From a virus, in the IMG/VR virus record IMGVR_UViG_3300021478_000034, positions 1-54,958 of that record: a stretch of DNA of 54,958 bases, one strand, 5' to 3'. The translations under genes were made by a program, and so were the position numbers. This document shows, piece by piece, positions 1,612-11,786 of the stretch. Below the pieces are notes generated by a model, which worked only from the letters and a program-made list of their open reading frames with translations, was not told the DNA's origin and searched no databases. The first letter of the stretch is position 1. Every line of letters begins with the position of its first letter.

Positions 1612-2010
1612 GTGGGAAATACCGAACGCAAAAGATTCATCCGAGATAAACGCAGACGAATTCTAGTCTCTGCGCTGGGTGGACTTTGTTCTAGTTGTGG
1701 TGTAGCTGAGAATCTTCAGTTTGATCACATCATCCCTGCTACAAAGGTCTTCGAAATGAGCGGTTATCATCTAGATAAGCCTTGGGTCATCCTAATAGAT
1801 GAGTTGTCTAAGTGTCAGTTATTGTGTAACGATTGCCATCTCGATAAATCTAAACTAGAGGGTTCGCTCGGAACGGTAGATCACGGTGGTGGTATTAGTG
1901 GAAAGAAAAACTGCCCCTGTGTGCTATGTAAAACTCGCAAGGCTGAATATATGAAGAATTATCACTTGGGACGTTGGAGCAGCGGAGTGCTCGTCACCCT
2001 GTCAAGGTGA
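1612..2010 (+). CDS. HNH endonuclease
   Basis: A predicted HNH homing-type nuclease of about 132 aa that would nick or cut DNA. Visible are a CSSC zinc pair, the FDH of the HNH core, and a second CQLLCNDC cluster ending in CH, followed by another CPCVLC knuckle. I place the start at GTG 1612, just after tRNA-Ala; the same frame is open further upstream, but only through the tRNA. No separate Shine-Dalgarno site is visible. The stop codon (2008-2010) lies in the anticodon arm of tRNA-Asp, so the coding region overlaps that tRNA by 43 bases. A free-standing homing nuclease in a tRNA array is the likeliest reading; its target is unknown. Confidence 0.8.
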   Translation: MGNTERKRFIRDKRRRILVSALGGLCSSCGVAENLQFDHIIPATKVFEMSGYHLDKPWVILIDELSKCQLLCNDCHLDKSKLEGSLGTVDHGGGISGKKNCPCVLCKTRKAEYMKNYHLGRWSSGVLVTLSR

Positions 2011-2040
2011 AGGTCACGGGTTCAAATCCCGTACGTCTCG
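1968..2040 (+). tRNA. tRNA-Asp(GTC)
   Basis: Acceptor GGGACGT/ACGTCTC, anticodon stem TCACC/GGTGA with loop CTGTCAA (anticodon GTC), discriminator G. Its 5' 43 bases also encode the end of the HNH protein. Confidence 0.94.
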
Positions 2041-2042
2041 CG

Positions 2043-2690: not shown

Positions 2691-3035
2691 ATGGTGAAAG
2701 AAAAGCTATTCTCGGTAACGGTTAACGACTGCGAAGTGCAGACCTTCCGTTCTGGTGGTAATGGCGGTCAAAACCAGAACGTTCGCGATACTGGCGTTCG
2801 GATTATTCATCATCCATCGGGCGCTCGCGGTGAGTCACGCGAGGAGCGTTCTCAGCTACAAAATAAGAGAACCGCCTTCCGAAGAATGGCTGAGTCTGCT
2901 AAGTTTAAGATCTGGATTACTCGGGTCGTCGGAAATCGACTTTCACCCGAACAGCAGGTAGAGAAAGATATGCAGGAAGCGAACTTGAAAGTTGAGGTTC
3001 GTGATGGTAAGGTTTGGAAAGTTGTGCCTCACTAG
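2691..3035 (+). CDS. GGQ release-factor-like protein
   Basis: A 114-aa protein holding only the peptidyl-hydrolase domain of class I release factors. The motif GGNGGQ sits at residues 22-27, followed by the typical NVRDTGVRI stretch and an SREERSQLQNK segment. It lacks the stop-codon-recognition domains of RF1/RF2 and the strongly basic tail of ArfB, so it is best described as a small RF-1-domain protein that could free peptides from stalled ribosomes. ATG 2691 follows tRNA-Lys by one base, and the stop codon (3033-3035) lies in the acceptor stem of tRNA-Arg. Its position in a tRNA array that also carries a tmRNA supports a ribosome-rescue role. Confidence 0.85.
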   Translation: MVKEKLFSVTVNDCEVQTFRSGGNGGQNQNVRDTGVRIIHHPSGARGESREERSQLQNKRTAFRRMAESAKFKIWITRVVGNRLSPEQQVEKDMQEANLKVEVRDGKVWKVVPH

Positions 3036-3310: not shown

Positions 3311-3487
3311 CTGCATAGTTCAGGTAGCCAGCGTGTATTGATGTGATGACGGATCGATTGTGATAGAATCGTCCCGATCCATATTGAGCCCTCTCTTATG
3401 TTACTATCACCTACATAGACTGGGTAACGCGAAAGAACACCGACTTCATACGTCGGAGACCTGTGAGTGGCGCACTCAGTCAAATTT
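3311..3487. other. 177-base spacer, no gene recognised
   Basis: It contains a perfect anticodon-like hairpin (CCGAC, TTCATAC, GTCGG at about 3440-3456) and a TGAGTG/CACTCA hairpin close behind, but no acceptor stem or T arm joins them. A TGATAGAAT stretch near 3361 could be a -10 box. Confidence 0.3.
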
Positions 3488-5081: not shown

Positions 5082-5157
5082 GCTTCTATAGCTCAGTGGA
5101 AAGAGCGTCTGGCTACGAACCAGAAGGTCGGGAGTTCGAATCTCTCTAGGGGCACCA
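5082..5157 (+). tRNA. tRNA-Arg(ACG), CCA encoded
   Basis: Acceptor GCTTCTA/TAGGGGC, anticodon stem TCTGG/CCAGA with loop CTACGAA (anticodon ACG), followed by an encoded CCA, unlike the tRNAs before 4000. Confidence 0.94.
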
Positions 5158-5158
5158 T

Positions 5159-5201
5159 CGTTCAGAGGCCAAACGGTCAGGCACCGCTCTCATAAGGCGG
5201 G
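5159..5201 (+). pseudogene. tRNA-CAT, 5' half (interrupted gene)
   Basis: Acceptor 5' strand CGTTCAG, D arm GCC/GGC and a full anticodon arm (CCGCT, loop CTCATAA, GGCGG) are present, but no T arm follows. The missing half is found at 5729-5764: CTGGACG there pairs perfectly with CGTTCAG here. The break lies in the variable loop. Confidence 0.8.
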
Positions 5202-5216
5202 CAACCCGCCGATATT

Positions 5217-5684
5217 ATGAAAGTGAAGAATTGTTCAAATTGCAAGCAAACCAAACCGCACAGTGAGTTTGGCCGTAACGTAGCTACGAAAGATGGTTTA
5301 CAGTATCACTGTAAGCAGTGTCGAAACGCTTACCTGAAAACTTGGTACTCTGAGAACAAGGACTTACAAAAAAGTCGAGTCCAGAAAAATACCAAAAAGA
5401 AGGTTGATGACCGCAGAAATTTGATACGGGAAATCAAAGAGTCGACACCATGCGCAGACTGTGGTATCCTCTACCCTCCGTACGTCATGGATTTCGACCA
5501 CCTCCCCGGAAGTGAGAAGATTACATCCATCTCATCCTTATCGCAAGGATGGCGTGGGAGCGTCGAGATACTAAAAGCGGAGATCCTAAAGTGTGAGCTT
5601 GTATGTGCCAACTGTCACAGAATTAGAACTCACAAAAGGCGCGTCAACGCTGGGAAGCCGAAGGGTGAGGCACCTCTCTCATAA
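5217..5684 (+). CDS. HNH endonuclease
   Basis: A 155-aa predicted HNH nuclease with an extra N-terminal zinc knuckle (CSNC and CKQC). The core shows CADC, then DFDH, then KCELVCANCH, which carries the second zinc pair and the last His. The region between is basic (KNTKKK). The start at ATG 5217 follows a GGCGGG-CAA-CCCGCC hairpin made partly of the broken tRNA; no clear ribosome-binding site is seen. The stop TAA (5682-5684) lies in the anticodon loop of the downstream tRNA-CAT, the same arrangement as the first HNH gene at tRNA-Asp. It is probably the mobility protein of the insert. Confidence 0.82.
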   Translation: MKVKNCSNCKQTKPHSEFGRNVATKDGLQYHCKQCRNAYLKTWYSENKDLQKSRVQKNTKKKVDDRRNLIREIKESTPCADCGILYPPYVMDFDHLPGSEKITSISSLSQGWRGSVEILKAEILKCELVCANCHRIRTHKRRVNAGKPKGEAPLS

Positions 5685-5722
5685 AGAGGCCGTCGTGGGC
5701 TCGACTCCCACTCCAGCGACCA
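5648..5722 (+). tRNA. tRNA-CAT (Met or Ile2), CCA encoded
   Basis: Acceptor CGCTGGG/TCCAGCG, anticodon stem CCTCT/AGAGG with loop CTCATAA (anticodon CAT), T stem GTGGG/CCCAC, encoded CCA. Its first 37 bases overlap the HNH gene. It is carried by the insert that splits another tRNA-CAT. Confidence 0.9.
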
Positions 5723-5728
5723 TCTAAC

Positions 5729-5764
5729 CGGGTATAGTTGGTTCGATTCCAACCTGGACGACCA
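5729..5764 (+). pseudogene. tRNA-CAT, 3' half (interrupted gene)
   Basis: A variable loop (GTATA), T arm GTTGG/CCAAC, acceptor 3' strand CTGGACG, discriminator A and an encoded CCA are present without any 5' half in front. It pairs with the 5' half at 5159-5165. Joining the halves at the shared CGGG gives a normal 75-base tRNA. Confidence 0.8.
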
Positions 5765-5765
5765 T

Positions 5766-5837
5766 CGGCTCGTAGCTCAGAGGAAGAGCACGCGGTTCCT
5801 ATCCGTGGTGTCGGGGGTTCGACTCCCTCCGGGCCGA
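5766..5837 (+). tRNA. tRNA-Arg(CCT)
   Basis: Acceptor CGGCTCG/CGGGCCG, anticodon stem CGCGG/CCGTG with loop TTCCTAT (anticodon CCT), T loop TTCGACT. CCA is not encoded. Confidence 0.92.
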
Positions 5838-5843
5838 CAATGG

Positions 5844-9678: not shown

Positions 9679-10905
9679 GTGCAGTTAGACGATCTGATTG
9701 ATCCAGAAGCCCTACGTAAGAAAATAGATCTTGGCCACGTAGCTGAGCGCCACCACTGTACCCTCCCCCTAGCTATCCTAAATTACACGGCCCGATGCCA
9801 GTACGCTAACGACTGGGATGAGGTCACCTCAAAGACTCGTGGTTTAATTTACAACACTGAGACAGGTAAGATTGTCGCTAGGCCCTTCGAGAAGTTCTTC
9901 AATCTGGGTCAGCACACTGATGATGAGATCCCTACTGGACCCATACGTGTCTTAGAGAAGATGGACGGTTCTCTTGGGATTCTTTATGACACACCGGATG
10001 GGTTAGCTATCGCAACTCGCGGATCATTTCATAGCGAACAGGCTGAGCACGCAACTGAGGTTCTCCGATTCAACATAGAGCACTATTATGGTCCAGGCTC
10101 TAAGCTTCCGTTTAGTCCAGACCTTGAGAATCATACATATCTTTTCGAGATCATCTATCCAGCGAATCGCATCGTTGTGGATTATGGATCAAAAGATCTG
10201 TTAGTGCTTTTGGATGTTTTGGATATTGAGACAGGAATGGCAGTTCCTGAGTTCGATCTGTATGATCAGCGTTATTATTTTGGACCTCATGTTTATCGTC
10301 ATGAGGGGATTAAAAGCCTTTCTGAATTGATCGACAGAGATGTGCCAAATGCCGAAGGCTATGTCGTTGTTTTTGACAATAACTTCCGTGTTAAGGTCAA
10401 GCACGCTGAGTATGTTCGGCTACATAGAATTCTAACGAACGTTACTGCTCGTAGTATTTATGAGTGTATAGCTGTAGAGGATCTAAAGAAGAGGGGCTTC
10501 GGAGCCAAGGAGATAGCACGATCTATTAGTATTAGCGACGAAGAGGTTGAAGATTATCCCTCACTAGCGCAGCTTCTAGACGGAGTTCCGGATGAGTTCT
10601 ACTCTTGGGTCCACAAGGTGGTTCATCGACTAGAAACGGCATTCTCCGAGATTGAATCTGAGGCCAAGATTGAGTTCTTGAATAATTTAGCCTTCATCGA
10701 TGTCCCCCTTCCCGGCTTTGAAGAATTCGATCAGCAGCCAGTGAAGGATGGTCGAGCTGAGTTCGCTAAGGTTGCGCAGAAGAGTAAGTATGCTAGTATG
10801 ATGTTCCTGATGTATGATGGTAAGCCTTACCACCAAGCTATCTGGAAGATATTGCGCCCCGAGCACGAGAAGCCATTTGGAGAAAGGACAGAGGATGTAT
10901 CGTGA
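9679..10905 (+). CDS. T4 Rnl1-type RNA ligase
   Basis: A 408-aa ATP-dependent RNA ligase that would seal 3'-OH and 5'-phosphate RNA ends, typically of cut tRNAs. Nucleotidyltransferase motifs are visible: motif I EKMDGS with the AMP-accepting Lys at 94, preceded by TRGLIYN and RPFEKFFN as in T4 Rnl1; FEII at 156-159; EGYVVV at 226-231; and motif V with K239 and K241. The length is near that of T4 Rnl1. It starts at GTG 9679 after GAGGT and overlaps the polynucleotide kinase gene by GTGA. It forms a repair pair with that enzyme. Confidence 0.9.
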   Translation: MQLDDLIDPEALRKKIDLGHVAERHHCTLPLAILNYTARCQYANDWDEVTSKTRGLIYNTETGKIVARPFEKFFNLGQHTDDEIPTGPIRVLEKMDGSLGILYDTPDGLAIATRGSFHSEQAEHATEVLRFNIEHYYGPGSKLPFSPDLENHTYLFEIIYPANRIVVDYGSKDLLVLLDVLDIETGMAVPEFDLYDQRYYFGPHVYRHEGIKSLSELIDRDVPNAEGYVVVFDNNFRVKVKHAEYVRLHRILTNVTARSIYECIAVEDLKKRGFGAKEIARSISISDEEVEDYPSLAQLLDGVPDEFYSWVHKVVHRLETAFSEIESEAKIEFLNNLAFIDVPLPGFEEFDQQPVKDGRAEFAKVAQKSKYASMMFLMYDGKPYHQAIWKILRPEHEKPFGERTEDVS

Positions 10906-11786
10906 GTGATCGTAGAGATTTCTACATGACCAAGGGCCTCCCTGGCTCCGGGAAGAGCACCTGGGCAGCCGAGTACGTCCTGAATAGGGCTCCTGGTAAG
11001 GCTGTTAGGGTCAACCAAGATTTACTTCGGATTATGTTGCACCTTGACCGCTTCGGTGGAGGTAAGACCGAGCCTCTCGTTCAGGGCGGTCGTAGCCTGT
11101 TAATCGAACTCGCTATGCAAAACAACGTTGAGGTTGTTATTAGTGACGATACCAACTTTCATCCCGATTGCGAAAAGGAATTTCGTAGGTTATGTGAGAA
11201 GCATGGTTATCAGTTCACGATTAAGGACTTCACTGATGTTCCTGTTGAGGAATGCATCAAGCGTGACTTGAAGCGCACAGCCTCTGTTGGTGAACAGGTC
11301 ATCCGCAAGATGTGGCGTCGTTACTTAGTTCCTCCGAAGGCTCCCACTAACCCGGAGGACTTCGATCCCAACCTACCGACAGCCGTTATGGTAGATATTG
11401 ACGGAACTGTGGCTATTATGAATGGTCGAGGTCCCTATGACCCAACTCTCTACCACACCGATATTCCACACAAACCCGTAGTTCAGCTAGTTAAGGACTT
11501 ACACGCTGCTGGTGAGGAGATAGTTTTCTGCTCGGGTCGAGATGATACTTACTGGCAGGAAACTCATAATTGGCTCACTACCCACCTTGGGTTCCTTCCT
11601 AATCACCTCTTCATGCGTCCGGCCGCTGATAAGCGTAAGGATGCCATCGTAAAGAAGGAACTCTACGAGGCAAAGATAAAAGGTAAGTTCAATATTCGTT
11701 TCGTTCTAGATGACCGTAATCAGGTTGTTGAGATGTGGCGCGATGAGGGGCTTACTTGCCTCCAGGTTGCTGATGGGAATTTCTAA
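10902..11786 (+). CDS. pnkp: polynucleotide kinase / 3'-phosphatase
   Basis: A 294-aa bifunctional end-healing enzyme with the domain order of T4 Pnkp. The kinase comes first (P-loop GLPGSGKST at 12-20, then VNQD), followed by a HAD-type phosphatase (DIDGT at 165-169, SGRDD at 211-215, DDR at 270-272). It would remove 2',3'-cyclic or 3'-phosphates and phosphorylate 5'-OH ends, preparing cleaved tRNA for the ligase encoded just upstream. GTG 10902 overlaps the ligase stop codon. Confidence in the function is high. Confidence 0.93.
   Translation: MSDRRDFYMTKGLPGSGKSTWAAEYVLNRAPGKAVRVNQDLLRIMLHLDRFGGGKTEPLVQGGRSLLIELAMQNNVEVVISDDTNFHPDCEKEFRRLCEKHGYQFTIKDFTDVPVEECIKRDLKRTASVGEQVIRKMWRRYLVPPKAPTNPEDFDPNLPTAVMVDIDGTVAIMNGRGPYDPTLYHTDIPHKPVVQLVKDLHAAGEEIVFCSGRDDTYWQETHNWLTTHLGFLPNHLFMRPAADKRKDAIVKKELYEAKIKGKFNIRFVLDDRNQVVEMWRDEGLTCLQVADGNF

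Follow-up and report, generated by a model that had tools for sequence, protein, structure and literature searches.

The stretch of DNA analysed here (the window, a virus record of 54,958 bases) carries a tRNA-CAT gene split by a 531-bp insert that we regard, with good confidence, as an HNH homing element: its endonuclease would target tRNA genes 3′ of the anticodon, and the loss would be rescued by a resistant isoacceptor borne by the element itself. A tRNA-like join across an HNH gene is, taken alone, weak evidence, because in a raw scan of ARAGORN joins the own pairs (16/294) were matched by cross-locus controls (16/294 and 13/294), and that scan was dropped as proof. What lifts the window case above chance is the sharing of anticodons across loci, the acceptor-pairing score of the halves, and an empty site in relatives of a phage bearing a homologous element.

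Anatomy of the split tRNA-CAT locus

The 29 tRNA/tmRNA genes called by ARAGORN in the window all lie within its first 7 kb. Between two tRNA-Arg genes, the order is 5′ half of tRNA A, HNH ORF, intact tRNA B, 3′ half of tRNA A (Table 1). The coordinates given by the initial annotation for the split tRNA and its insert proved exact, and its description of the insert as an HNH gene plus a complete tRNA-CAT was borne out by a PHROG 2255 match and by the ARAGORN call of tRNA B; the CGGG repeat was likewise found at both edges. The HNH gene is the sole protein gene of the insert.

Table 1. Positions of the features of the locus and of other features of the tRNA array in the window
Feature	Position	Strand	Remarks and basis
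Second HNH ORF	1612-2010	+	Weak match, 32% identity, more divergent; directly after tRNA-Ala(TGC)
tRNA-Asp(GTC)	1968-2041		Contains the end of the second HNH ORF
tRNA-Arg(ACG)	5082-5157		Left neighbour of the locus
tRNA A (CAT), orphan 5′ half	5159-5201	+	Acceptor 5′ strand, D arm, anticodon stem-loop to position ~44; sequence, ARAGORN join
Interrupted inverted repeat, proposed operator	5190-5220	.	TCATAA 5190-5195 / TTATGA 5215-5220 around GGCGGG 5196-5201 / CCCGCC 5205-5210
CGGG direct repeat	5198-5201 and 5729-5732		Both edges of insert; sequence
Insert splitting tRNA A	5202-5732		531 bp; holds HNH ORF and intact tRNA-CAT B
HNH endonuclease ORF	5217-5684	+	155 aa; last 12 codons including stop inside tRNA B
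tRNA B (CAT), intact candidate replacement	5648-5722	+	75 bases, tRNA-Met(cat), CCA encoded; ARAGORN, covariance model
tRNA A, orphan 3′ half	5729-5764	+	T arm, acceptor 3′ strand, encoded ACCA; sequence, acceptor-pairing test
tRNA-Arg(CCT)	5766-5838		Right neighbour of the locus

In the intact window sequence, tRNA A was not called by ARAGORN. When 5151-5201 was joined to 5733-5770, the program returned a 75-base tRNA-Met(cat), as had been claimed for the joined halves. Their acceptor strands pair over 7 bp, one of the pairs being G-U. This pairing scored 10.5, a value reached by 0/380 cross-locus pairs.

The two tRNAs have the loop CTCATAA in common and differ in the anticodon stem, CCGCT/GGCGG in tRNA A versus CCTCT/AGAGG in tRNA B. 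The stop codon TAA of the HNH gene (5682-5684) sits within the anticodon loop of tRNA B, so that both genes overlap. At the other end of the ORF, the inverted repeat at 5190-5220 makes the anticodon loop and stem of tRNA A reappear at the HNH start. An HNH/tRNA overlap occurs again in the same array, where the second HNH ORF ends within tRNA-Asp(GTC). The array also contains a release-factor-like RF-1 domain protein at 2691-3035 (profile matches); an RF-1 domain gene is mentioned for mycobacterial tRNA arrays in the portion of PMC5966550 consulted. Beside the array, at 9679-11786, ORFs of 408 and 294 amino acids resemble by eye RNA ligase and polynucleotide kinase, and are possible tRNA repair genes.

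The product of the HNH ORF matched PHROG 2255, HNH endonuclease, with E 6.2e-35, and more weakly two PHROG endonuclease VII families (E 9.5e-14 and 3.3e-7). Its PHROG matches with a named function were to HNH, endonuclease VII, one plain "endonuclease" and one Lar-like family; no GIY-YIG family was among them, and no Pfam or NCBIfam family fitted the protein at the thresholds used. Residues D94, H95, N132 and H134, together with the cysteine set, were invariant across 26 aligned members including the window protein, which thus appears to hold an intact HNH (beta-beta-alpha-metal) motif, while its cysteine sets look like two zinc sites. The AlphaFold model had a mean pLDDT of 93. Among solved structures, there was no match by sequence and none by fold at E <= 0.001 (Foldseek); the weak Foldseek matches include the Gme HNH nicking enzyme and T4 endonuclease VII, that to 1en7 having E 3.2 and TM 0.29.

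Filled and empty sites in phages

A search for an empty site in the window's own lineage, via the terminase, one flanking protein and exact patterns of each half, found none. The best terminase matches had 44% identity in IMG/VR and 37% among phages, and the search returned a near-identical contig plus a few distant terminase relatives (L089, GX15bay and others). The contig, L007 from IMG/VR, agrees with the window over 6,465 bp around the HNH gene at 100% identity; the two may derive from one phage, and the contig does not count as independent evidence.

Among phages, the highest-ranking match to the window HNH protein was in Streptomyces phage Wofford (44% identity). Wofford has an intact tRNA-Met followed by the 5′ half of a second tRNA-Met(CAT), an HNH gene, and an intact tRNA-Met(CAT) that overlaps the end of the HNH gene. 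In Karimac the second tRNA-Met(CAT) is uninterrupted, and both phages are 99.6% identical over 268 bp up to about nucleotide 40 of this tRNA, after which Wofford carries 704 bp with the HNH gene and tRNA-Met(cat); the match resumes in the 3′ half of the tRNA (L332:1872 = L366:1472), with three tRNA bases missing. StarPlatinum and LukeCage have the same uninterrupted tRNA-Met as Karimac. The sequences read were those of Wofford and Anedea, both filled, and of the unfilled Karimac, StarPlatinum, LukeCage and CeilingFan, the second tRNA of the latter having diverged. Anedea is filled like Wofford and its 3′ half lost more bases, while Riptide is filled by listing. Among the best 40 of 102 records, query coverage of at least 76% was found only in Wofford (two accessions), Anedea and Riptide, the others having at most 30%.

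Sequence comparison thus shows for Wofford that an HNH gene plus a tRNA were inserted into an intact tRNA gene whose halves were left as remnants; the element is sporadic, its site being unoccupied in close relatives. For the window, we infer the same insertion from anatomy and homology. The initial annotation had suggested looking for an uninterrupted tRNA in related phages: it was found for the homologous Streptomyces element, and none was found for the lineage of the window. Since Wofford and Karimac have the same laboratory host on record, the hypothesis is directly testable.

These sites bear on two other explanations. According to the first, the halves are joined by RNA splicing, through a group I or II mechanism or through enzymatic removal of a tRNA intron, with the inner tRNA as a passenger. 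The good tRNA that ARAGORN made of the joined window halves would agree with this, as would the pairing of the anticodon-loop sequence with insert sequence, slightly reminiscent of a group I P1. However, the absence of an intron signature reported earlier held when Rfam covariance models were run, as only tRNA and tmRNA families passed the gathering threshold in the window. A group I core needs more room than about 25 nt, which is all that the HNH gene and tRNA B leave of the insert, so that there is no space for it. Moreover, Wofford lacks three bases and its abutted flanks give no tRNA in ARAGORN, and reading by eye found damage in the orphan halves of Anedea, L010 and L076. The earlier suggestion that splicing of the halves was possible is therefore disfavoured, and we consider an intron very improbable. 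The second explanation is an assembly artefact, since both the window and L007 were assembled from metagenomes, perhaps in one and the same assembly; the same architecture in the isolate genomes of Wofford and Anedea, and by listing of Riptide, makes it barely credible.

In TunaTartare, reading by eye disclosed an intact tRNA-Arg(ACG) before the HNH gene and an orphan 3′ half after it. Another kind of ORF was seen by eye in Mycobacterium phage NuevoMundo (L330:578-1075), resembling a PD-(D/E)XK endonuclease, with a new intact tRNA-Tyr before it and, after it, an orphan 3′ half that aligns to the end of the intact tRNA-Tyr of ArcherS7; perhaps the same logic operates there with another nuclease family.

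Remnants, replacement tRNAs and putative promoters across loci

The association of HNH genes with tRNAs was studied in IMG/VR loci (best 80 of 173, best 80 of 585 and best 80 of 574 matches) and prokaryote genome loci (best 80 of 170 matches), with the addition of phage records chosen from the phage search. Among the matches listed, 160 of 294 distinct HNH ORFs had a tRNA on the + strand within 300 nt. A tRNA started between -60 and +40 nt of the stop in 102/302 HNH ORFs versus 51/892 other ORFs of the same loci, and the ORF end lay inside the tRNA start in 68/302 versus 10/892. At their right end, members of the family often have an intact tRNA that adjoins or overlaps the end of the HNH gene. 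The 102 HNH-adjacent tRNAs covered 28 anticodons and 16 isotypes. On an HNH tree of 102 leaves the anticodon of tRNA B changed 57 times, whereas 300 shuffles gave on average 80 changes and never fewer than 75, which shows that target choice is partly inherited and often switched; the frequency of these switches weighs against the homing reading.

Remnant 5′ halves were sought by comparing the first 46 nt of tRNA B with the masked region upstream of HNH in 99 own pairs. Scores of at least 40 were given by 9/99 own pairs versus 0.28% of cross pairs, and of at least 24 by 16/99 versus 2.5%, so even at the loosest threshold recognisable halves are a minority of the HNH/tRNA loci. By eye, remnants were read for His(GTG) in L010, Arg(TCT) in L014, Gly(TCC) in L076 and L180, Val(TAC) in L093, Asn(GTT) in L104, Arg(CCT) in L095, Arg(ACG) in L100, Gln in L008, L029 and L289, Phe(GAA) in candidate-phylum bacteria contigs (L256, L271, L280, L260), and Gln in an Acidobacteria contig (L303) and a Pyrinomonadaceae contig (L278). 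These 5′ halves break off near positions 38-46, immediately 3′ of the anticodon. Adding L189, the window and Wofford to the remnants read by eye gives a set of 20, of which 18 have the anticodon of their tRNA B (the exceptions being L189, which may be no remnant, and L303), a count biased by the fact that most were found by likeness to tRNA B. When the best match of each remnant was taken outside its own locus, it carried the anticodon of the remnant's own tRNA B in 11/21 cases (1.7 expected, maximum 9 in 20,000 draws) and was a tRNA of another anticodon in the other 10. Remnant and replacement thus share their anticodon more often than by chance.

Concerning the orphan 3′ halves, similarity of the 3′ part of tRNA B to downstream sequence displayed no enrichment (2/99 at a score of at least 24, 1.7% expected) and was given up in favour of an acceptor-complementarity test on the acceptor strands of 20 remnants read by eye. 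Pairing with the 5′ half at a score of at least 9.5 was observed in 5/20 own pairs (window, L014, L093, L278, L303) versus 0.8% of cross pairs. The test misses Wofford, whose 3′ half is plain by homology, and L010 and L076, where it is seen by eye. As an aside, the replacement tRNA-Arg of L336:1637-1712 (Mildred21) and of L014 (~3412-3486) seems by eye to have no normal D arm; a D-loop-like sequence follows the anticodon arm, with possible pairing around it, and ARAGORN does not call these tRNAs.

It could be argued that an ordinary free-standing HNH gene drifted into the tRNA array, duplication and break being coincidental in a fast-evolving cluster. According to the partial texts available, no coding sequences are more widespread in mycobacterial tRNA arrays than endonucleases, often HNH (PMC5966550, which cites Pope et al. 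2014 for a role of endonucleases in tRNA diversity), a similar statement being made for some mycobacteriophages (PMC6409571), and a recognisable split tRNA is missing from most of the 99 loci where a tRNA adjoins the HNH gene. Nevertheless, anticodon sharing between remnant and replacement is beyond chance, the breaks read by eye fall shortly 3′ of the anticodon, and Wofford differs from Karimac by one insertion, HNH plus tRNA, inside one tRNA. Coincidence is thus held to be improbable.

Bacterial relatives allow a look at the anticodon stem. A tRNA-Phe probe matched 23/73 genomes of the family of one Levybacteria genome, and 24 loci were examined (L340-L363; L364 and L365 were left out). In 21 of them there was a tRNA-Phe, five with an HNH gene and 16 without. 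The inner anticodon-stem pairs were TGT/ACA in 14 of the 16 HNH-less loci, the other two having GCT/AGC (L345) and CGC/GCG (L356). Nine HNH-bearing genomes were considered, corresponding to the five family loci plus the tRNA-Phe loci of the prokaryote search, with duplicates merged; TGT/ACA was absent in eight, while L261, read by eye, retains it with another base at loop position 32. Because of the exceptions L345, L356 and L261, recoding of the stem is not a strict rule, and descent is a confounder. Concerning L345, which has a recoded-stem tRNA-Phe and no HNH gene detected, it possibly lost the element.

The tRNA B of L342 differs from the uninterrupted tRNA-Phe of L350 by three compensatory anticodon-stem pairs and by nothing else. 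In L340 and L341, the 3′ part of tRNA B equals that of the HNH-less L346 (identity 1.0), and the D and anticodon arms are like those of L342 (0.97); such a mosaic is what repair with a donor 5′ side and a recipient 3′ side would give, and L345, without an HNH gene, has similar arms. The remnants of L271, L280 and L260 kept the loop CTGAAGA after a stem strand ending in GT. In the genomes G002, G003 and G004, tRNA B was the only probe match by BLAST, from which a divergent copy may escape, in genomes that may be incomplete; tRNA B is there probably the working tRNA-Phe gene.

The claim that a mobile HNH element breaks a tRNA and brings its own copy is therefore supported by the Streptomyces sites, the HNH-less Levybacteria relatives and the sharing of anticodons, and extends to the window by homology.

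Upstream of the HNH genes, the hexamer TANNNT occurs exactly 6 nt before the ATG in 83 of 227 ATG-started genes, versus 1-21 (median 6) at 44 other offsets, while a Shine-Dalgarno-like site is present in 2/105 genes with the hexamer at 5-7 nt and in 30/227 overall. Many HNH genes look, by these signals, leaderless with a promoter of their own, although the usual -10 element with 6-nt spacing is absent from the HNH start of the window. Perfect inverted repeats of at least 8 nt precede 39/300 HNH genes versus 2.1% of shuffles. In 16 of 81 loci with a repeat of at least 6 nt and a nearby tRNA, a repeat arm shares at least 6 nt with the local anticodon 9-mer (3.0% cross-locus). Remnant loops pair with downstream sequence beyond permutation (0/100,000) in 19 remnants chosen, and their loops typed, by hand, a procedure that favours clear cases. 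In L062, L180, L333, L335 and L336, a -35-like hexamer sits between the two arms or right at the inner edge of one, with the 3′ arm preceding the -10; among strong repeats, the 3′ arm overlaps the promoter in 11/14, a slight excess over the 8.0 expected by random placement. By analogy with I-TevI, the upstream repeat may be an operator bound by the HNH protein for autorepression. Two other readings of the repeat were considered: a group I P1 was rejected, there being no core, and an RNA hairpin is disfavoured where the gene looks leaderless, as the repeat then lies upstream of the transcript.

It is also conceivable that the element is real but the HNH protein acts on other or distant sites, spreading the array by co-conversion like SegB, with the spare tRNA kept for dosage or anti-defence. 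SegB, a GIY-YIG enzyme that cuts inside tRNA genes and drives tRNA amplification, is a precedent (PMC13096335), and free-standing enzymes frequently cleave at a great distance from the gene that encodes them (PMC2988022), as far as the available parts of these sources go. Among C1 mycobacteriophages, 11 of 216 matching records cover at least 80% of an HNH-bearing query, and in the genomes read, three with HNH versus three without, the flanking tRNA versions differ too. Against this stand the location of the HNH gene within its presumed target and the presumed operator, which in some members repeats the anticodon loop of the local tRNA. We judge action at distant sites unlikely, and homing into the tRNA gene itself is the reading followed below.

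Proposed mechanism and comparison with known systems

According to the proposed mechanism, the HNH protein would cut or nick the uninterrupted tRNA gene of a co-infecting phage, and repair from the element-bearing copy would install the HNH gene and the spare tRNA. The latter would escape cleavage by its different anticodon stem, with anticodon and fold kept, and the carrier would lose no decoding function because its spare tRNA is resistant. In many members, a leaderless HNH gene would have a promoter of its own, and the HNH protein would repress it at the target-site inverted repeat. There is, in our estimate, about an even chance that a broader statement is true, namely that this is a widespread natural cleave-and-rescue element, made of an anticodon-arm nuclease and a stem-recoded tRNA of the same anticodon, self-controlled by a target-site repeat, and able to switch tRNAs by changing nuclease, spare tRNA and operator together. 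So understood, it would invade phage and bacterial tRNA genes, apparently including the sole tRNA-Phe of small Levybacteria genomes.

Introns and inteins pay by splicing the cost of invading essential genes. If the proposal is true, this element pays by carrying a substitute for the gene that it breaks. It would also explain the HNH genes of phage tRNA arrays and their overlap with tRNAs, and would be a source of tRNA turnover and of duplicate isoacceptors in phages and small bacterial genomes.

Among the titles and opening lines of abstracts surveyed, none described a tRNA that is both split and replaced around an HNH gene, a prior description in Pope et al. 2014 being possible. The SegB and SegB-like genes of T4 and T6 are similar in that a free-standing endonuclease gene lies in a phage tRNA cluster. 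SegB cuts within tRNA genes and amplifies neighbouring tRNAs (PMC13096335), and is listed as inserted between tRNA-Arg and tRNA-Ile (PMC2988022). It is a GIY-YIG enzyme, whereas the window element is HNH, and the portions of both sources consulted mention for SegB neither a split target nor a same-anticodon replacement, as found here. In the case of I-TevI, from the T4 td intron, the operator looks like the homing site and overlaps the promoter of the endonuclease gene, according to the part of PMC2988022 available. The putative operator of the present element would likewise be target-like and placed at the endonuclease promoter; however, I-TevI is a GIY-YIG enzyme inside a group I intron, while the present element is not part of an intron and its putative operator takes the form of an inverted repeat with the anticodon loop in it.

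Integrative elements with tRNA attachment sites also insert into a tRNA gene whose function is restored by element-borne sequence, as is proposed here. Their insertion depends on an integrase and reconstitutes the 3′ end of the interrupted gene, whereas in the present case HNH is the sole protein-coding gene of the insert, the target is broken at the anticodon arm, and the element brings a complete second tRNA. In synthetic cleave-and-rescue drives, based on Cas9 and engineered in animals, a nuclease destroys an essential gene and a linked, recoded copy that cannot be cut replaces it. The element described here, if the proposal is true, would be their natural counterpart at the scale of a tRNA.
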